Shown here one piece after another: positions 151 to 10,829 of a stretch of 14,206 nucleotides of DNA. Every line of letters begins with the position of its first letter. The first letter of the stretch is position 1. The notes beneath the pieces were generated by a model. The model was not told the origin of the DNA and did no database searches. It was given only the letters and a program-made list of their open reading frames with translations. Source of the DNA: Methanobacteriota archaeon (lineage in GTDB: Archaea; Thermoplasmatota; Poseidoniia; Poseidoniales; Thalassarchaeaceae); NCBI GenBank assembly GCA_002712575.1, contig PATZ01000054.1, positions 1-14,206 of the forward strand. Direction: 5' to 3'. The translations under genes and the position numbers were made by a program.

Positions 151-1349
151 AGATGTGTCACAACACAGAGACTCATGAAAACTATGAAGCAACAGAAGAA
201 GAATGTGAAGCTGCAGGCCACATGTGGACTGGAGACGATCATCACGACGATGACCATGGAGATGAGATGTGCCACAATACAGAGACTCACGAGAACTACG
301 AGTCCACAGAAGAAGAATGTGAAGCTGCAGGACATGTGTGGTTAGATCATGAAGATCACGATTTACCAGAAATTCATGCCGATAGAGTCGCTCACACTCT
401 TTCATTCCCTGAGGAAATGGTATGCTACGATATGAACTCACACACAATAAACATGACTCTTACTACTGAATCCGATTGTCAAGCAGCAGGCTTGATGTGG
501 ACCGCAGCAGATAGTGGCCCGGGTGGCGACGAACATTCTGATGAAGAGGGTCACCATGCAGTTGGAGCGGTTGTGATTCACATTGAAGCTGAGGGTGACT
601 ATGGATTCGCATTACCAAACGACGTTGCATTCTTTATCGTAATGGGTGAAGGTGGACATGATGACCATGATGACCATGATGACCACGGTGATGATGACCA
701 TGATGACCATGATGACCACGGCGATGATGATGACCATGATGACCACGGTGATGATGATGACCATGATGACCACGGTGATGAGATTGATGCTGGCGATGGT
801 GAAGATGCATTCACATATGATCCACACAGTTGGTTGAGCCCTATGGCTTTCCGAGCACAAGTCAATCTTGTTCTCGATGCAATGTCTTCAACATTCCCGA
901 ATGGATCTTCAAGTTTCAGTACTAATGCAAATAATTACAGTAACCAACTAATGGACTTGCATATTGCATATGTATCTGCATTTGGAGATGAAGGAACTTG
1001 TGCAATATCTGGTCAAGAGAAAACAATAGTTGCTAATCACAATGCATACTCGTACATGTCCGTAGCATATGATATTGAAATTATCACACTGCATGGGCTA
1101 GATCCTGAAGGAGAACCTTCACCAGCAGATATTGCTGAAGTCGTTGAGCACATTGAAGAAGAAGGAATTACTGTATTATTCGTTGAAGAATATACTGACC
1201 AAACAGCAGTTAACTCTCTCGTCACAGAAACAGGAGTGTCTATAGAAATACTTTACACAATGGAAATGGCTCCAAGTGATAGTAGCGATAATTACCTATC
1301 TATGATGAATAAAAATCTACAGAATATTATTTCTGGATGTGGATGTTAA
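1..1349 (+). CDS. Zn/Mn ABC transporter substrate-binding protein (ZnuA-like), 5'-truncated
   Basis: Partial gene, reading frame open from base 3; the start lies before the window. It is the extracytoplasmic metal-capturing subunit of the ABC transporter encoded downstream. The C-terminal half is recognisable as the ZnuA/TroA cluster: DPHSWLSP with a ligand His codon at 825-827, HNAYSYM with His at 1038-1040, then GLDPEGEPSP, a VLFVEE strand and a closing YLSMMNKNL helix. The His in HNAYSYM matches the zinc-type third ligand; manganese-binding relatives usually have Glu. The usual C-terminal Asp ligand (family form near LxTDxxG) is not evident; the text there is LYTMEM. The family's single His-rich loop is hugely expanded here into two His/Asp/Gly tracts, three Cys modules and a strand-rich insert. 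The protein ends in Gly-Cys-Gly-Cys. The internal ATG at 153 is not a plausible start, because the same frame and composition continue upstream. Confidence 0.88.
   Translation, partial: HDDHGDDDDDHDDHGDDDDDHDDHGDDDDDDHDDRGDDDDHDDHGDDDDEMCHNTETHENYEATEEECEAAGHMWTGDDHHDDDHGDEMCHNTETHENYESTEEECEAAGHVWLDHEDHDLPEIHADRVAHTLSFPEEMVCYDMNSHTINMTLTTESDCQAAGLMWTAADSGPGGDEHSDEEGHHAVGAVVIHIEAEGDYGFALPNDVAFFIVMGEGGHDDHDDHDDHGDDDHDDHDDHGDDDDHDDHGDDDDHDDHGDEIDAGDGEDAFTYDPHSWLSPMAFRAQVNLVLDAMSSTFPNGSSSFSTNANNYSNQLMDLHIAYVSAFGDEGTCAISGQEKTIVANHNAYSYMSVAYDIEIITLHGLDPEGEPSPADIAEVVEHIEEEGITVLFVEEYTDQTAVNSLVTETGVSIEILYTMEMAPSDSSDNYLSMMNKNLQNIISGCGC
153..227 (+). repeat. Cys module copy 1 within the binding protein
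   Basis: A 25-residue module starting MCHNTETHENY and ending TEEECEAAGHMW. It has two cysteines 16 residues apart and closes on Trp. Copy 2 at 267-341 differs at few residues, so the duplication is recent. Confidence 0.85.
267..341 (+). repeat. Cys module copy 2 within the binding protein
   Basis: Nearly identical to copy 1 (Ser for Ala and Val for Met are the visible residue changes). It is separated from copy 1 by a short His/Asp linker (TGDDHHDDDHGDE). Many third-position DNA differences with almost the same protein suggest the residues are under selection. Confidence 0.85.
417..500 (+). repeat. Cys module copy 3 (diverged, 28 residues)
   Basis: Keeps the plan Met-x-Cys...Thr-Glu-x-x-Cys-x-Ala-Ala-Gly-x-Met-Trp but lacks most of the His residues of copies 1 and 2. 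It may be the ancestral unit from which the tandem pair arose; that is inference. Confidence 0.7.
657..782 (+). repeat. Second His/Asp-rich repeat tract
   Basis: About 42 codons made of CATGATGAC and CACGGTGATGAT units, encoding HDDHDDHDDHG-like repeats immediately before the conserved DPHSWLSP region. This is the usual place of the His-rich loop in ZnuA proteins, so this tract is probably the original metal loop and the tract at 1-150 an extra one. Confidence 0.85.
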
Positions 1350-1527: not shown

Positions 1528-2340
1528 GTGCAAATAAATCCAAATGACGAGGAATGTTGTGAACCTTCAATCTTAGAGGTTAGTGATTTAACAGTAATTC
1601 GTTCAGGTAAAGTAGTTTTACAAGATATTGATTTAACAGTGCATAAGGGAGAGTTTATTGGCCTTGTAGGGCCTAATGGAAGTGGTAAATCTACACTTCT
1701 TCTTTCACTTCTTGGAGTATTGAAACCACATAAAGGTTCGATAAGTATCTATGGGAATAAACCTAATTCAAGAAATTTCTTTGGAAGAATTGGTTGGGTA
1801 TCTCAAGCTGCCTCTAATTTACCTAGTCAAGTTAGATTAACTGTCCGTGAATTAGTTAGATTAGGGACCCTAAATAACTCAAACCTCTTTTCTTGGGCAG
1901 ATAATGGACGTAGTGAAAAGGTTACTAGAGCAATCAGAATGGTTGGCCTAGAAGATGTAGAAAATGTTGATGTATCCCGTCTTTCTGGTGGTCAGAGGCA
2001 GCGGGCAGTTATTGCAAGAGCATTAGCAACTGAAGCAGAATTTCTTTTACTTGATGAACCATTGGTTGGTATGGATAATAATGCTAGAAATTCCTTGTTA
2101 AAGTTATTAGATCAACTTTGTCACGAGGCGGATAAAACAATTCTGATGGTGTCTCATGATTTAACTGCAATACGTCAAACAGCTCATAGAATGATTTTCT
2201 TGGAAGAGAAAATTAGATTTGACGGCCCAACTCATCTCTTCCCTGATTTGGAAACTCTGGCAGGTTTACGTGGAATTACTCCTACTCATGAAGGTCCAAT
2301 TCATATTCATTCAATTCCACAGTCAGAGGAGGTGAGATGA
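1528..2340 (+). CDS. Metal ABC transporter ATP-binding protein (ZnuC/MntB-like)
   Basis: Cytoplasmic ATPase that powers import of Zn2+ or Mn2+ through the neighbouring permease. All ABC motifs are present: Walker A GPNGSGKST at residues 48-56, Q-loop Gln93 (VSQ), signature LSGGQRQR at 152-159, Walker B FLLLDEP at 172-178, and switch His210 (SHD). At 270 residues it has the usual family length. The C-terminal tail THEGPIHIHS is mildly His-rich, as in some ZnuC proteins. The start is GTG 1528; the nearby ATG at 1508 is out of frame and closes quickly. The preceding GGGAA is a weak ribosome site, so the exact start is uncertain. It is followed by the permease with overlapping stop and start. Substrate cannot be told from the ATPase itself. 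Confidence 0.93.
   Translation: MQINPNDEECCEPSILEVSDLTVIRSGKVVLQDIDLTVHKGEFIGLVGPNGSGKSTLLLSLLGVLKPHKGSISIYGNKPNSRNFFGRIGWVSQAASNLPSQVRLTVRELVRLGTLNNSNLFSWADNGRSEKVTRAIRMVGLEDVENVDVSRLSGGQRQRAVIARALATEAEFLLLDEPLVGMDNNARNSLLKLLDQLCHEADKTILMVSHDLTAIRQTAHRMIFLEEKIRFDGPTHLFPDLETLAGLRGITPTHEGPIHIHSIPQSEEVR
2328..2335 (+). promoter_or_regulatory. Strong Shine-Dalgarno that decides the permease start
   Basis: GGAGGTGA sits inside the end of the ATPase gene. It ends one base before ATG 2337 but four bases before ATG 2340. The same four-base spacing is seen between AGGTGA (10824-10829) and the start of the adenylating enzyme at 10834, so 2340 is the better start. Confidence 0.6.
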
Positions 2341-3275
2341 TGTGGGATGTTGAATTTCCAATAGGTGATTTTTTAATGGAACCGCTAACGACCTTATTAG
2401 AATCAATAGCTCCTATTGTTCCAGGAGAAACATTCCCTTACTTTTTCACTATGGAAATGTTTCAACGCGCTATGATTTCAGCATTACTTGTAACGATTGT
2501 CGCGGGATTTCTAGGTACATTCTTATTAGTTAGAAATCTTGCATTAATAGGAGATGGTTTGGCTCATGTATCTTTTGGCGGTGTTGCTATAGGAGTTGTC
2601 TTAGGGGCGACATCTCCTTTGTGGTATGCATTATTTTTCAGTATCATTGCATCAATCATTATTTATGAATTACAGTCTAGAGAAATACTTACAGGGGATG
2701 CTTCTATTGCAATCTTCCTTACTGGAATGTTGGCCTTGGGTCTTGTTGCCTTACGAGTTGGTGGTGGAGGTATTACAACGGATATCGAAGGCTATTTATT
2801 CGGTAATCTACTTTTAATCGATGAAGCTGATTTCAATATGATTTCTGCCATTTGTATTATATCATTTGTTATTCTATACAGAATTAGTTCTGGTTTACTT
2901 GCAACTACAGTAGATCCTCTATCGGCAGCAGTCCAAGGCATTCCAGTCCGAGGAATTGGACTTCTATTCAGTGTCATAACAGCCGCAGTAGTTGTGAGTA
3001 TGGTACAAGTCGTTGGAGCATTGTTAGTTACATCATTGCTTGTAACTCCTGCAGCAACTGCTCAATTAATTGGGCGTAGTTTCCGTTCATGTTTATTATG
3101 GACTCAGATATTTGGAATTAGCTCTGTCCTATTGGGGCTTTATTTTTCTGCCGAGTACGATACTGGGAGCGGTTCAATGATTGCATTAGTAGCTGCAATA
3201 ATATTCTGTTTAATGGCTATTTTAACTAGTTTCACTAATATTTTAAATTATTTCAATCCAAAAAATATTTCATAA
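2340..3275 (+). CDS. Metal ABC transporter permease (ZnuB/MntC-like, ABC-3 family)
   Basis: Integral membrane channel subunit for Zn2+/Mn2+ import, working as a dimer with the ATPase. Hallmarks of the ABC-3 family are clear: RNLALIGDGLAHVSFGGVAIG in the first third, GDASIAIFLTGMLALG, an LFGNLLLI segment, the coupling region VDPLSAAVQGIPVRGI, and the late segment VVQ-like VQVVGALLVTSLLVTPAATAQLI. Length (311 residues) is slightly above the usual 270-300 because of an N-terminal extension before the first span. About eight membrane spans are expected. Start ATG 2340 is chosen by ribosome-site spacing; ATG 2337 overlaps the ATPase stop by four bases and is the alternative. An AT-rich stretch with a T-run (3293-3304) follows and could end transcription. 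Confidence 0.92.
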   Translation: MWDVEFPIGDFLMEPLTTLLESIAPIVPGETFPYFFTMEMFQRAMISALLVTIVAGFLGTFLLVRNLALIGDGLAHVSFGGVAIGVVLGATSPLWYALFFSIIASIIIYELQSREILTGDASIAIFLTGMLALGLVALRVGGGGITTDIEGYLFGNLLLIDEADFNMISAICIISFVILYRISSGLLATTVDPLSAAVQGIPVRGIGLLFSVITAAVVVSMVQVVGALLVTSLLVTPAATAQLIGRSFRSCLLWTQIFGISSVLLGLYFSAEYDTGSGSMIALVAAIIFCLMAILTSFTNILNYFNPKNIS

Positions 3276-3357: not shown

Positions 3358-4008
3358 ATGTATTCGGTGGCAATTGAGGACTATCTGAAATCTATTTGGA
3401 AACTTGGCTCCAAAGATGTAGGCACTCAGGAGTTAGCATCTCACCTTAATATCAAACCTGCTTCTGTAACCAAGATGATTCTCCGATTAACTGAGATGGG
3501 ATTAGTCGATCATACTCCATACAAAGGTGCATCATTAACTCGTCGAGGAGAATTAGAAGCTTTGTCTGTAGTACGTAGACACCGTCTGTTAGAGACTTTT
3601 CTTTCGCAAACTTTAGGTCTTGCTAGAGATGAATTACACGTAGAGGCTGAAAGACTAGAACATGCACTTTCGAAGGAACTTGAAGCCGCTATAGCCGAAT
3701 ATCTGGGTAATCCTACTCGTGACCCTCATGGTCATCCAATACCCGGGCCTAATGGTGAATTATATGAAGAAACAGATCTTCCTTTATCCGATTCGCCGAT
3801 TAATATGACTCTAACCGTTATGCAAGTACCAGATAATGATTCGAATATTTTATCCTGGTTAGAAAATAATAACATTTACCCTGGTACTAAATTAAAGATA
3901 ATCTCTAGAGATGATTTTGATGGCGGTATTAATGTTAGAATTGGTCTTAGTAAAATACGCATTTCTTCATCAATAGCAAGTTTAGTGAAGATTTCTTTTG
4001 AGGAGTAA
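3358..4008 (+). CDS. DtxR/MntR-family metal-dependent transcriptional regulator
   Basis: Cytoplasmic metal-activated repressor. Residues 1-65 form the winged helix (VGTQELASHLNIKPASVTKMILRLTEMGLVDHTPYKG), 66-135 the dimerisation and metal domain, with the family signature DPHGHPIPG at 122-130, and about 145-216 an SH3-like FeoA domain, so it is the full DtxR-length type rather than the two-domain MntR. Alignment by eye places metal ligands at Asp8 (Met10 in DtxR), His75, Glu79, His94, Glu98 (Cys102 in DtxR), Glu101 and His102. Asp8 and Glu98 are the choices seen in manganese-sensing MntR, but the MntR Glu11 position is Lys here. It is followed after four bases by the exporter gene and preceded by the twin operator, so autoregulation is likely. 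The start ATG 3358 has no ribosome site and fits a leaderless message. Confidence 0.92.
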   Translation: MYSVAIEDYLKSIWKLGSKDVGTQELASHLNIKPASVTKMILRLTEMGLVDHTPYKGASLTRRGELEALSVVRRHRLLETFLSQTLGLARDELHVEAERLEHALSKELEAAIAEYLGNPTRDPHGHPIPGPNGELYEETDLPLSDSPINMTLTVMQVPDNDSNILSWLENNNIYPGTKLKIISRDDFDGGINVRIGLSKIRISSSIASLVKISFEE

Positions 4009-4012
4009 GTTT

Positions 4013-5221
4013 ATGGTAACTTCGAATGAAATTTTCGAGGTCATAGTTGTCAGCATGCGGGACGCTTTTCTTGCAGTAACCGTTTTTGTTGCTGCAATGG
4101 TTCTATTATTCAGTTGGTTGCAGTACATTACTGCAGGAAAATTTGTTGATAAAATCAGAGCTAATACTGGTTGGCAACCAGTGATTGGTGCTCTCATGGG
4201 CATCACTCCAGGATGTGGTGGAGCTATTGTAATGATGCCAATGTACACGCGTGGTTATGTCACCTATGGGACAGTTATAGCGACACTTATCGCGACTTTA
4301 GGTGATTCCGCATTTGTTTTAATCGGTGCTGCAGTCACTGATTCATCATTCATTGCTCCAGTTATTGCTGTACATATTATTTCGTTTATTATTGGAATTT
4401 GTTGGGGTTATCTTGTGGATGTTATGAAAATCACTCCTCGTAACCCATTAGGGAGATTTAGTTCAAATTTTCCAGGTAATCTTTCATCTGTTACTGTCGT
4501 TGAAATCAAAAATGGAGATAAGAAAGAAATTTTTGAAGATCTCGGAAGAGAAGAAAAAAGCGGTTGGGGTTACTTCCTTCTACACCAGGGTTATACTGTT
4601 TGGTGGATTGTAACTGCCTTCGGACTTATATTTGCAATCTTATTATTGGTATGGAGTTCCCAGAATGCAGATTTCACTCTTGAGGTTGATTACAATCCAT
4701 TGACCCTACACGGTTTCATTACTTGGATTGGTCTAATCGGAACTTCCCTGTCTATCATTCTCTATATTTCACAGAGAAATTGGATTGGTGATGATACAGA
4801 AGCATCTATTGGTGATAAATTATATTCTATGCGTGAAACTATGATACATTCTGCAAGTGAAACTGCATTTGTTACTTTTTGGGTGATGTCTGCATATCTT
4901 ATTTTTGAGTTTTCTATGTTATTTTCAGGGATGAATGAGGATGATTTAGCATTATACGGCGATGGTCTTATTGCTGTAATTCTTGCATCATTGATTGGAT
5001 TAATTCCCGGATGTGGTCCTCAAATAATTGCGATCACTGCATATACAAAGGATATAATCTCTTTTCCAGCACTTGCAGCAAATGCTATCAGTCAAGATGG
5101 AGATGCACTTTTCCCATTGCTCGTGAGACATCGAGCAGCAAGTCTTTGGGCAACGGTACATACTACCATCCCCGCTCTCATTATAGGAATTATTTTGATG
5201 TTTTTTGGGGTAAATTTCTAA
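4013..5221 (+). CDS. Putative 10TM heavy-metal (manganese) exporter
   Basis: Polytopic membrane protein of 402 residues, probably exporting Mn2+ or another divalent metal. The two halves carry matching signatures: GITPGCGGAIVMMPMYTRG (63-81) with TLGDSAFVLIG, and GLIPGCGPQIIAITAYTKD (329-347) with SQDGDALFPLL. Such paired Pro-Gly-Cys-Gly halves fit the 'putative manganese transporter / 10TM heavy-metal exporter' (ArsP_2-like) family; the assignment is from recall of the motif and not from a search. A hydrophilic loop of about 50 residues (138-187) separates the halves. An AGGAG ribosome site (4001-4005) lies seven bases before ATG 4013; the TTG at 3998, inside the regulator's end, is rejected. 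Cotranscription with a metal regulator supports a homeostasis role. Arsenic or another ion remains possible. Confidence 0.75.
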   Translation: MVTSNEIFEVIVVSMRDAFLAVTVFVAAMVLLFSWLQYITAGKFVDKIRANTGWQPVIGALMGITPGCGGAIVMMPMYTRGYVTYGTVIATLIATLGDSAFVLIGAAVTDSSFIAPVIAVHIISFIIGICWGYLVDVMKITPRNPLGRFSSNFPGNLSSVTVVEIKNGDKKEIFEDLGREEKSGWGYFLLHQGYTVWWIVTAFGLIFAILLLVWSSQNADFTLEVDYNPLTLHGFITWIGLIGTSLSIILYISQRNWIGDDTEASIGDKLYSMRETMIHSASETAFVTFWVMSAYLIFEFSMLFSGMNEDDLALYGDGLIAVILASLIGLIPGCGPQIIAITAYTKDIISFPALAANAISQDGDALFPLLVRHRAASLWATVHTTIPALIIGIILMFFGVNF

Positions 5222-8931: not shown

Positions 8932-9159
8932 ATGAATGATGAAAATGCTAAATTCATATGGGCGTATATTCAAGATGCAGGTGATAAATTAGTTGATAAG
9001 TTACCTCCATCAAGAAAGCATCCTAAAGGAAGGAATCCCTATGCGCACATTGCAATCTGTGTCAAAGGAAAATTTTCTATATCATACAAAGAGATTCCTG
9101 ATGATAAATTTCAAGAGGTAATTGATTACATAGATTATCTAGTCGAGAACCCATCATAG
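8932..9159 (+). CDS. Small hypothetical protein downstream of the DNA methyltransferase (75 aa)
   Basis: I do not recognise a firm family. The protein is soluble, with an N-terminal helix (ENAKFIWAYIQDAGDKLVDKL), a basic linker PPSRKHPKGRNPYAHI, and a compact block FSISYKEIPDDKFQEVIDYIDYLV. The order 'aromatic-His, short strand, SYK-x-IP, helix' faintly recalls C-terminal domains of phage antirepressors (ORF6C-like), which is a weak resemblance only. It starts 24 bases after the methyltransferase stop on the same strand, so cotranscription is likely and a DNA-binding or accessory role is conceivable. The upstream GAGTTG is a poor ribosome site. The regular amphipathic pattern and full use of the gap support a real gene. 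Confidence 0.65.
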   Translation: MNDENAKFIWAYIQDAGDKLVDKLPPSRKHPKGRNPYAHIAICVKGKFSISYKEIPDDKFQEVIDYIDYLVENPS

Positions 9160-9220: not shown

Positions 9221-9286
9221 CTAACAACAACCATCGCAACTGCAATCTGCACCACAGGGGGAACAATCACAACATTCACAATTCAT
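9221..9286 (-). CDS. Metallothionein-like Cys-rich micropeptide (21 aa)
   Basis: A 22-codon frame on the minus strand, ATG at 9286-9284 and TAG at 9223-9221. It encodes 21 residues of which nine are Cys, at positions 3, 5, 6, 8, 11, 15, 17, 20 and 21. The pattern is Cys-x-Cys-Cys-x-Cys-x-x-Cys, then Cys-x-Cys-x-x-Cys-Cys, with only Asp, Glu, Ser, Gly, Pro, Ala and Asn between. There are no aromatic, large aliphatic (after Met1) or basic residues, as in metallothioneins. It would chelate Zn, Cu or Cd as a thiolate cluster. An in-frame TGA four codons upstream fixes the start. No clear Shine-Dalgarno is present, but an element almost identical to that of the PD40 lipoprotein gene lies at the same distance (9305-9318), consistent with a leaderless message. 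A chance frame is possible because the peptide is so short. Confidence 0.55.
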   Translation of the reverse strand: MNCECCDCSPCGADCSCDGCC

Positions 9287-9304
9287 GTAATTGCTTCAAT
9301 TGTT

Positions 9305-9318
9305 AAGTACTTAGTATT
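9305..9318 (-). promoter_or_regulatory. Promoter element of the Cys-rich micropeptide
   Basis: On the minus strand it reads AATACTAAGTACTT, 13 of 14 bases identical to 6470-6483. It too ends 18 bases before its ATG, with AATACTAA at -32 to -25. Position fits a TATA box for a leaderless transcript; the extra shared ACTT may be a regulator site. Confidence 0.55.
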
Positions 9319-9386
9319 AATTGAAAAAACAATCAAAATATTAATATTACCAGCCCTTTTTATTAATTTCAACTTCTTAACGGCTC

Positions 9387-9419: not shown

Positions 9420-10829
9420 GTGAATAGCCATCCTGATATGCCTGAGGTCTTATCCCCCTCAATTAGATGGTTTTTTATCAATCCAGTTTTTCTCTCAATA
9501 GAGTTAATACTAATCTTTTCTATTATTAATATAGAATTTTTATATCCTAATGAGTTATTCATAGGTAGTTCTTTTTTACTTTTATTCGCTTTTATTTACT
9601 ATTTTCTAGATTTTTCTCCGATTACTTCAATTCAAACATTTTTAATTATTTTAGCAGTTTTCATCCAAATAATTTTTTCGTTTTTCTCAATTACTATTCC
9701 ACAATTTCTTATACCATTGATGCTGATTTTTTCTGTAATAGTTTCTGGTTTGATATATTTTTTCTTTTCTAAGGTAATTATAGATAATGGAATTGTAATT
9801 TTTAAATCCAACTCTGTAAAATCTAAAAATGTCTCTATAGAATCTCGAATAAGAACTATAGGAGGTATTTTTGGTTTTGGTGATATAATTCTACACTATA
9901 AAAAAAAGAAATATGTCATATCAGGAATTAATAATAATATTGAAATTCGTCGAAAAATGATTGATAATCACCAATTACAGCCGCATAAACAAACAGCAAC
10001 ATGGAGTGGCACTCTCGTGTTATTTCTAATCTGTACAATGATACTTTTTTCTCCAATAATTTTATGCTTAGTATATTTTTATATTTATTTTTCTTCATTT
10101 GCTATACCATTGAGGATCTTATTTTCTGTGTCATTAACTTTATTTTTATCGGTCTTGATTCTAAATATTCGTTTACCAAGGAAAAATATTAATCCTGCAT
10201 CAGATCTATTGAATTTGAAGTTAATTGATACGGGAATGTGGACACAGATATTCCAGTGGAATGAATTACTTGTTGTTAAACAGTTATTCAGGTGCGGTTG
10301 GGGTCATAATAATTACAACGACCACAAGGCACCTATAATTGGTAAAAAGATGTGTGGTAAATGGAATCCAATTGCTTTAGTTATAATGCATAATTTAATG
10401 CTTATTTATCAAATGATTGGGATTCATCGAAGAAAAATCTACGAGCATCATATTGATGCTATTCCAAGAACCTATACGATTCCTGGTAGGAAGTTTAGAT
10501 ATCTTCAAGAATATGTGTCTAAACCTCTTAACTTAGAAAATATGCCCGAAGACATCAATGATCAATTCATATTATTAAATGAACAATTAGAAAGATCAGG
10601 TTTATTCATCGATGATATTCATGCAGGCAATGTTAGAATAAATTCAGATGGAAAAATAAAATTAGTAGATGGAGAATTATACACCGATGGAGAAGTCCTA
10701 ATCAAGAATTTCCTTGTGAATGGAATTGACAATAGGTTAAACGGTATGGAGAAAGTATTAGGTTGTGAAAGAATAATTCGCTGGGTGGACCACAGAGTAT
10801 CTGTTGATGATTTATTAAAACAAAGGTGA
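9420..10829 (+). CDS. Multi-pass membrane protein with bacterial-PH-like and kinase-like domains
   Basis: I know no named family with this layout. Residues 17-116 hold about four membrane spans. Residues 117-182 (KVIIDNGIVIFKSNS ... GGIFGFGDIILHYKKKKYVISGINNNIEIRRKMI) match the plan of bacterial PH (bPH2/DUF304) domains. Two more spans lie near 197-222 and 228-249. The cytoplasmic C-terminal part (about 270-465) reads as a degenerate kinase fold: LLVVKQL with Lys287 as the beta-3 lysine candidate, hinge-like YLQEYVSKPL, a catalytic loop DDIHAGNVRI with Asp399 and Asn404 in the aminoglycoside-kinase/UbiB-like order D-x-H-x-G-N, and LVDGE with Asp417 in place of DFG. The putative active residues are kept, so it could phosphorylate a small molecule, lipid or protein. 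It overlaps the ribosome site of the next gene (four-base gap). Base composition is markedly AT-rich. Start GTG 9420 is supported by a TATA box; ATG 9438 is the alternative. Confidence 0.7.
   Translation: MNSHPDMPEVLSPSIRWFFINPVFLSIELILIFSIINIEFLYPNELFIGSSFLLLFAFIYYFLDFSPITSIQTFLIILAVFIQIIFSFFSITIPQFLIPLMLIFSVIVSGLIYFFFSKVIIDNGIVIFKSNSVKSKNVSIESRIRTIGGIFGFGDIILHYKKKKYVISGINNNIEIRRKMIDNHQLQPHKQTATWSGTLVLFLICTMILFSPIILCLVYFYIYFSSFAIPLRILFSVSLTLFLSVLILNIRLPRKNINPASDLLNLKLIDTGMWTQIFQWNELLVVKQLFRCGWGHNNYNDHKAPIIGKKMCGKWNPIALVIMHNLMLIYQMIGIHRRKIYEHHIDAIPRTYTIPGRKFRYLQEYVSKPLNLENMPEDINDQFILLNEQLERSGLFIDDIHAGNVRINSDGKIKLVDGELYTDGEVLIKNFLVNGIDNRLNGMEKVLGCERIIRWVDHRVSVDDLLKQR

Follow-up and report, generated by a model that had tools for sequence, protein, structure and literature searches.

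A 21-codon gene of Candidatus Poseidoniales encoding a predicted nine-cysteine, metallothionein-like peptide, preceded in most copies by a NikR-like operator

Results

A 21-codon open reading frame in an intergenic gap

The window, by which we mean the entire stretch of 14,206 nucleotides analysed here, carries on its minus strand a 21-codon open reading frame (ORF) that runs from ATG to TAG. This ORF, the elements 5' of it, and its neighbours are as follows.

153..1349 (+): ZnuA-type metal-binding protein, later part (Pfam PF01297; pieces aligned separately to a longer homologue)
1528..2340 (+): znuC-type ABC ATPase (Pfam)
2337..3275 (+): znuB-type permease, ABC-3 (Pfam)
3358..4008 (+): DtxR/MntR-family regulator (Pfam)
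4022..5221 (+): ArsP_2 putative heavy-metal exporter (Pfam)
8932..9159 (+): 75-aa ORF convergent with the peptide gene; relatives have homologues, and Pfam gives no match at E<=0.001
9221..9286 (-): nine-cysteine microprotein gene, MNCECCDCSPCGADCSCDGCC, 21 codons, stop TAG at 9221-9223; homologues and purifying selection
9295..9325 (-): outer dyad TTCAATT...AATTGAA around the TATA position, different from the canonical operator (by eye)
9306..9314 (-): TATA-like box position, 20-28 nt 5' of the ATG; CTAAGTACT in the window, CTAAATAAT-like in many relatives
9338..9366 (-): weak match to the NikR-like operator (profile scoring), 13.5 bits, at -79 versus the usual -45
9420-10829 (+): 469-aa ORF divergent from the peptide gene, kept in locus L095; weak, sub-threshold ABC1-kinase match (E 0.046)

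The encoded peptide is 43% cysteine, with Cys at positions 3, 5, 6, 8, 11, 15, 17, 20, and 21 in CxCC, CxC, and CC motifs. Given the local base composition, 20 codons would contain nine or more cysteines with a probability of about 1e-9 to 3e-9; apart from the peptide ORF, the maximum over 20 codons in any of the six frames of the whole window is five. By eye, the peptide lacks a signal peptide, His, and aromatic residues and has almost no hydrophobic ones, so that only metal could fold it. Its gene lies between the convergent 75-aa ORF and the divergent 469-aa ORF and occurs once in the window's genome. No tRNA was found in the window, nor any Rfam family above its gathering score.

The initial annotation, made from the window alone, had placed a minus-strand ORF encoding Met and nine Cys, with a proper stop, in a gap otherwise free of genes. 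The ORF is present exactly as described, and no ORF of at least 60 aa over 9221-9286 covers it. The same annotation considered it far below the usual gene-calling length and its surroundings rich in metal-homeostasis genes. Both statements are borne out, by an unannotated gene of 21 codons and by the Pfam assignments of the ZnuA, ZnuC, and ZnuB types, the DtxR-family regulator, and the ArsP_2 exporter.

Distribution and conservation of the family

A first homologue search gave matches in 20 of 97 genomes at E<=10, the window's own included. A 14-member alignment was then searched over 318 genomes of the order Ca. Poseidoniales and matched 47 of them at E<=0.1; one (G046) was a chance match, leaving a homologous peptide gene in 46/318 genomes. 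One of these 46 genomes (G007) has a disrupted frame, its N-terminal part being lost behind a stop. The other 45 genomes supply 46 loci of intact length, the broken G007 copy being the 47th locus; one genome (G006) has two identical loci, perhaps an assembly duplicate. The initial annotation had named as refuting results the lack of homologous ORFs with identical Cys spacing in close relatives and the breaking of this frame there. Such homologues were found, and the frame was disrupted in G007 alone of the 46 genomes.

All 46 loci keep the 21-codon length, with the stop directly after a final Cys-Cys. The start codon is ATG in 42, GTG in three, and CAT in one. Nine Cys are present in 45 of the 46, Cys3 being lost in L103 (G301), and 44 loci have both a start codon and all nine Cys. 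The family pattern is M-x-C-x-C-C-x-C-x-P-C-G-x-x-C-x-C-D-G-C-C, from which residues other than Cys depart in rare cases. In the 14-member alignment, the only invariant residues apart from Met and Cys are G12 and D18, with P10 and G19 close to invariance. None of the 46 listed peptides, which include the window type and a MPCDCCDCDPCGPSCSCDGCC type, contains an aromatic residue. The family is patchy (46/318), which indicates that it is dispensable; incomplete metagenome-assembled genomes also lower this count.

Outside the order, no match survived inspection among 389 genomes across the phylum. Three weak matches, from inside or outside the order, were rejected on reading the DNA: those in G407 and G046 (the latter a genome of the order) fell in a stretch shared with another open frame, with no peptide-like ORF, and that in G446 (E 0.0022, for one of the 389 genomes) consisted of Met and 'PCKCCTFNPCG', the later Cys all being absent. 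A pattern scan of 84,980 species genomes, able to pick up close relatives only, returned 15 loci. Fourteen were taken as true, all from Euryarchaeota, Marine Group II, or Candidatus Poseidoniales; the sole non-archaeal match, a Streptomyces locus, covers 12 residues and was regarded as chance. None of the 100 pattern matches in viral contigs was confirmed. Small-ORF catalogues may already contain the peptide without a name.

Selection on the coding frame

Across 42 distinct coding sequences, encoding 38 distinct peptides, pN/pS was 0.16, and 21 disjoint nearest pairs differed by 101 synonymous and 74 nonsynonymous changes. Frame 0 contained no stops, and the five other frames were interrupted in 7, 42, 16, 22, and 17 of the 42 sequences. 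TGT and TGC both occur at each of the nine Cys positions. The initial annotation had asked whether third codon positions vary while Cys is retained, and this is what the alternation of TGT and TGC amounts to. Mean information at codon positions 1, 2, and 3 was 1.53, 1.68, and 0.89 bits, and 0.20 bits in the 30 bases 3' of the stop (43 distinct sequences in both cases). The selection, stop, and information data together form the pattern of a coding gene; judged by these comparisons, the peptide ORF is a genuine protein-coding gene kept by selection.

Promoter and shared operator

In many loci, the TATA-like box lies 20-28 nt before the ATG and, given archaeal promoter spacing, the mRNA should be leaderless or nearly so; this spacing suggests a leaderless or near-leaderless message for the peptide gene. 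The initial annotation had also reported that the promoter-like element of the peptide matches that of another gene. This claim was not confirmed in the window, where the core TTAATACTAAGTACTTAA has no second occurrence with up to three mismatches; it is in the relatives that an element, and a different one, is shared with other genes.

At 33 of the 46 peptide loci, an inverted repeat, TAWTAATT-N11-AATTAWTA, lies 45-46 bases 5' of the start, over the TATA box. All 33 elements score at least 11.8 bits, and 30 of them at least 12. These values come from a model trained on 16 distinct sites of nikR-like genes only, with a threshold of at least 12 bits at spacing 11. This model passes 33/46 peptide promoters, 5/457 other genes (465 minus eight nikR, znuA, or COG0523 genes), and 0.8% of shuffled promoters. 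The 33 passing peptide promoters comprise the 30 at -45/-46 and three at -79 (the window, L024, and L095). At spacing 12, 15/46 peptide promoters also reach 12 bits, which we read as register slippage in AT-rich half-sites.

The same repeat precedes genes of metal uptake. COG0523 promoters (64 DUF1636-positive genomes, yielding 30 loci and 29 parsed promoters) have it at spacing 11 as their best match in 18/29 cases. A peptide/COG0523 half-site model was built from 22 peptide and 17 COG0523 sites, drawn from 36 and 19 after near-identical or N-containing sites had been dropped; two of the 22 peptide training sites are the displaced matches of the window and L095. Over 465 gene promoters of the loci retrieved, this model gave ten scores of at least 14 bits at spacing 11; each remaining spacing between 7 and 15 gave from 0 to 5. 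Those at spacing 11 include three COG0523 genes, a ZnuA-type gene and its divergent NikR-like gene (G295), and a further ZnuA-type gene (G007). The other four are the 469/472-aa gene divergent from the peptide (window and L095), an oxidoreductase-like gene (L099), and a transporter-like gene (L023). With the same model, which contained no nikR site, the repeat was found before all 30 nikR-like genes examined (the best 30 of 208), at -52 to -54 and with at least 18.3 bits; 28 of these best 30 are divergent from a ZnuA-type gene. An example among these loci (L137-L166) is the nikR-like gene at L096:3572-4003(+), with the operator in the gap to L096:3482. The operator that most peptide promoters have in common with nikR-like/znuA and COG0523 genes is new here and provides the best clue to function, one beyond the initial annotation. 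It points to a peptide family that mostly belongs to a NikR-like metal-uptake regulon.

It should be noted that 13 of the 46 loci are without the -45 element (the window, L023, L024, L025, L033, L035, L036, L081, L092, L095, L096, L100, and L102), so that the statement on the regulon is one about most of the family, the window copy set aside, and control may differ at these 13. Peptides beginning with MNC or MDC are encoded at eight of the 13, among them the window, and at no other locus; L024 is the nearest relative of the window copy. The operator-like match at -79 in the window may be due to chance or may belong to the divergent gene. Near the start site of L025 lies the dyad AATTCGGTA-AA-TACCGAATT, with a near copy in L081, both loci being without the -45 operator. 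The other dyads in L025, L081, and positions 9295-9325 of the window suggest a different regulator.

The NikR-like regulator and the COG0523 operon

A nikR-like gene is present in 208/318 genomes of the order. Its product matches Pfam NikR_C (PF08753) at 25.3 and 26.9 bits, with a cut-off of 22. Pfam yields no separate RHH family at E<=0.001; the phmmer alignment to NikR structures, over residues 6-125, includes the N-terminal domain. The best relative in the PDB is the Pyrococcus NikR (2bj1, E 4.7e-11), and the H. pylori NikR also matches. The older form of the HpNikR consensus, TATWATT-N11-AATWATA, is the closer one to the operator described here. In the part of the literature cited here, the HpNikR consensus is given as TRTTA and TAWTA 15 nt apart, and NikR is said to act mainly as a metal-dependent repressor (PMC5385501). 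The nickel site of E. coli NikR is described as H76, H87, H89, and C95 (PMC7055735). In the NikR-like protein (P0002), H76, H87, and C95 align, H89 is replaced by Ser, and a residue is inserted before the KHSHxC stretch. The other 29 NikR-like proteins show metal-loop variants; the canonical H76/H87/H89/C95 nickel site was not found.

The COG0523/CobW GTPase (PF02492, PF07683) is followed by a DUF1636-like protein (DUF1636 E 2e-4, below the curated cut-off). This gene pair (L023, L024, L073, L095, L107-L136) lies within a few kb of the nikR-like gene in several genomes. The nikR-like gene occurs in 40/46 genomes with the peptide, against 208/318 overall (30.1 expected, p 4e-4), and the DUF1636-like gene in 20/46 (9.3 expected, p 7e-5), both p values ignoring shared ancestry. 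Within family f2, peptide and DUF1636-like gene showed no link (3 observed, 2.3 expected).

According to the cited part of a COG0523 study, one COG0523 subgroup is linked to zinc limitation and archaeal members fall mostly in another subfamily (PMC2770081). Zinc is favoured here because of the ZnuA partner and the COG0523 genes. Nickel superoxide dismutase (SOD) is encoded by 15 of the 33 peptide genomes tested, the window's included (0 positives among 14 control genomes), which speaks against a simple zinc-only story and makes the metal of the regulator uncertain. Nickel SOD was found in none of the 18 genomes tested from genera g6, g8, and g10, and urease above the cut-off in none of the 33 tested peptide genomes, three weak matches lying below it. 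The NikR-like protein is a candidate archaeal zinc (or nickel) uptake regulator. On contig C17 of G038, a nickel SOD gene (83989-85119) is convergent with the nikR-like gene, about 0.3 kb away.

Genomic contexts and evidence of gain or loss

Mechanical ORF calling distinguishes up to 36 nearest-neighbour pairs among the 46 loci, an upper figure because ORF calling and contig ends split some identical places. In 20 of 45 loci, the nearest downstream ORF to reach 100 aa converges on the peptide gene, which is evidence against an attenuator. The COG0523/DUF1636-like genes adjoin the peptide gene in 4/46 loci, in three arrangements (L023; L024 and L095; L073). In G295, the peptide gene is about 70 bp from nikR; it is 5 to 15 kb from nikR on the same contig in G007 (the broken copy), G016, G270, G272, and G114. 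A GST/glutaredoxin-like protein of about 249 aa adjoins the peptide in L025, L081, and L086, in two arrangements.

In genus g8, a transporter-like gene (judged by eye to be a sodium-solute symporter) and a 90-aa ORF are separated, between tblastn ends, by a gap of 165-166 bp where this bears the peptide (G016, G270, and G026) and of 33-44 bp in six species without the peptide there (G267, G268, G271, G266, G265, and G053). The first four of these six have the peptide gene elsewhere in the genome. G272 has the peptide in the same gap, where the interval is wider; another three genomes that possess the 90-aa gene were not measurable and are left out of this comparison. The difference indicates that about 125 bp, promoter and ORF, are present or absent as a unit. 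These are clean empty sites within one genus (L171-L173 and L175-L177 against L167-L169).

Comparison with known metallothioneins and metal regulons

Against the named metallothionein (MT) families, none of 14 family members matched Pfam or NCBIfam at E<=10, a search in which the HMMER filters drop most weak matches. The family profile recovered no solved MT among PDB sequences, its sole match at E<=10 being the nucleolar protein LYAR (E 0.7). On present evidence, the peptide would work like a metallothionein and stands outside every named MT sequence family testable here.

Among analogues of solved structure, the MT of N. crassa (25 aa, 7 Cys; PDB 1t2y) comes closest in size. Like it, the archaeal peptide is tiny, rich in Cys-X-Cys, free of aromatic residues, and genetically encoded, and would be expected to form a single cluster. 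Other small fungal MTs are Magnaporthe MMT1, of about 22 aa with 6 Cys, and Heliscus MT1, of about 24 aa. Eight Cys are given for the Heliscus MT in the cited part of PMC13107397, which also describes the beta-cluster of human MT3 as Zn3Cys9/Cd3Cys9. The archaeal peptide differs from the small fungal Cu-MTs in being 21 aa long with nine Cys and two Cys-Cys pairs, and acidic where they are Ser/Gly rich, with no detectable sequence relationship. With the beta-domain of mammalian MT (PDB 2mhu and others), it shares nine Cys and a possible M(II)3Cys9 cluster; unlike that 30-aa part of a two-domain protein, it is free-standing at 21 aa and without Lys-rich spacing. Like the SmtA/BmtA-type metallothioneins, the archaeal peptide is prokaryotic and predicted to be cytosolic and to bind metal through thiolates. 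The SmtA types differ from it in their length of about 55 aa, their His residues, and their zinc-finger part. SmtA has been described, in the source passage cited, as binding Cu or Zn (PMC7558416). The Anabaena SmtA-type metallothionein is reported to be under an ArsR/SmtB-family repressor (PMC8790569, in part), whereas most copies of the archaeal peptide gene have a NikR-like operator.

The regulator resembles the NikR of E. coli, Pyrococcus, and H. pylori in its NikR_C domain, its match over residues 6-125, and the AT-rich, long-spacer dyad that is its presumed operator. It is unlike known NikR in the half-sites of that dyad (TAWTAATT, spaced by 11), its altered metal loop, and its divergent orientation from znuA. 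The predicted joint control of znuABC and COG0523 recalls Zur regulons and the predicted archaeal DtxR-type ZntR of Methanosarcina, as outlined in the cited part of PMC2770081; the differences are the NikR-like regulator and the addition of a Cys-rich microprotein to the regulon.

Discussion

Our preferred explanation, which we hold with reasonable confidence, is that this genuine gene specifies a microprotein of the cytoplasm with a thiolate cluster, metallothionein-like and probably for zinc, which in most of the family belongs to a NikR-like regulon. The metallothionein-like reading proposed in the initial annotation is supported, the metal binding itself being deduced from composition and regulon context. 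At most loci, the peptide gene would form a transcription unit of its own, with a near-leaderless promoter and a TATA box situated within the operator, and the message would then be translated. The nine Cys of the product could hold one M(II)3Cys9 cluster, or several Cu(I). The peptide might buffer or shuttle zinc entering through ZnuABC, and it might shield the cell from thiophilic metals (cadmium, copper) that enter by the same route. The NikR-like protein would bind the operator and act as a metal-dependent repressor of the peptide gene; if it is a holo-repressor, the peptide would be made in metal scarcity. The operator lies over the TATA box at peptide promoters and, by eye, upstream of it at the COG0523 and two znuA promoters, a difference that makes an opposite sign of regulation possible.

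A fuller version of this explanation is offered tentatively, as somewhat more doubtful than secure. The family would be the first of archaeal metallothioneins, and no other genetically encoded thiolate-cluster protein that we know of would be as small or as dense in Cys as this peptide. Its gene of about 125 bp (operator, promoter, and 21 codons) would insert cleanly into intergenic sites and join a zinc-sensing, NikR-derived regulon. A holo-repressor over the TATA box would shut it; at znuA and COG0523 genes, where this site precedes the TATA box, its action may be different.

The data can be read in other ways. The density of Cys-X-Cys and Cys-Cys without His resembles that of small fungal Cu-MTs, and the peptide could be a copper(I) or cadmium detoxification thionein set apart from zinc supply, with the NikR-like operator secondary or of opposite sign, the peptide being made when metal is plentiful. 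The differing position of the operator relative to the TATA box would suit this reading, and the sharing of the operator with importer and COG0523 genes counts weakly against it; we regard it as unlikely. It is also conceivable that the NikR-like protein senses nickel and that the peptide buffers or delivers this metal, for example to nickel SOD. The membership of the regulator in the NikR family, the alignment of H76, H87, and C95, and the nickel SOD of 15/33 tested genomes (the window's among them), found near the nikR-like gene in G038, argue for such a nickel regulon. However, the aligned metal loop carries a replacement at H89 and one inserted residue, the divergently encoded transporter protein is ZnuA-type with His/Asp-rich stretches, urease is missing above the cut-off in the 33 genomes tested, and nickel SOD is absent from the 18 genomes of g6, g8, and g10 although each has a nikR-like gene and the peptide. 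We consider a nickel regulon distinctly improbable.

Two further readings deny the peptide a function of its own. A Cys-codon leader peptide (attenuator), or a structured RNA or DNA element with no stable peptide product, would fit an ORF so short that adjoins a conserved promoter. The near-leaderless message, the predominance of synonymous changes with the amino acids kept, the lack of an Rfam match in the window, and the differing neighbours in many contexts, with convergent downstream ORFs at 20/45 loci, all argue against it; with no constant co-directional downstream gene at short distance, the leader peptide is largely refuted, and this class of explanation is very improbable. A chance ORF in an intergenic gap could appeal to a length of only 21 codons. 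It is refuted by the conservation, the selection, and the odds against such Cys richness, and we treat its likelihood as negligible.

With regard to novelty, a review states, in the part cited, that metallothioneins are absent in archaea (PMC3600143), and genome papers for Thermococcus gammatolerans and for Haloferax mediterranei likewise report, in the portions cited, that there are none. We found no paper pairing metallothionein with Marine Group II, nor the phrase 'smallest metallothionein', in the literature searched, which holds few of the subscription papers. At 21 codons, below the usual gene-calling length, archaeal metallothionein-like genes could be missed. The peptide probably represents a metal-binding protein of extremely small size, in a domain of life from which metallothioneins are said to be missing. 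Marine Group II is described as the most abundant group of planktonic archaea in ocean surface waters (PMC6461757, in the part cited), and the occurrence of the family there makes it relevant to the ways in which archaea of the ocean cope with scarce zinc and with toxic metals. According to a passage of PMC2770081, no Fur or Zur is recognisable in archaeal genomes. With the operator described here, archaea gain a regulon open to testing, made up of the nikR-like, znuA, COG0523, DUF1636-like, and peptide genes.

The ZnuA of the window's genome (G000) is seemingly split over two contigs, the end of C47 and positions 1-1349 of the window, near a His/Asp-rich repeat stretch. The end of C47 carries the first ZnuA part and a divergent nikR-like gene; since the same ZnuA type continues at the start of the window, C47 and the window, which are not joined in the assembly, probably adjoin.
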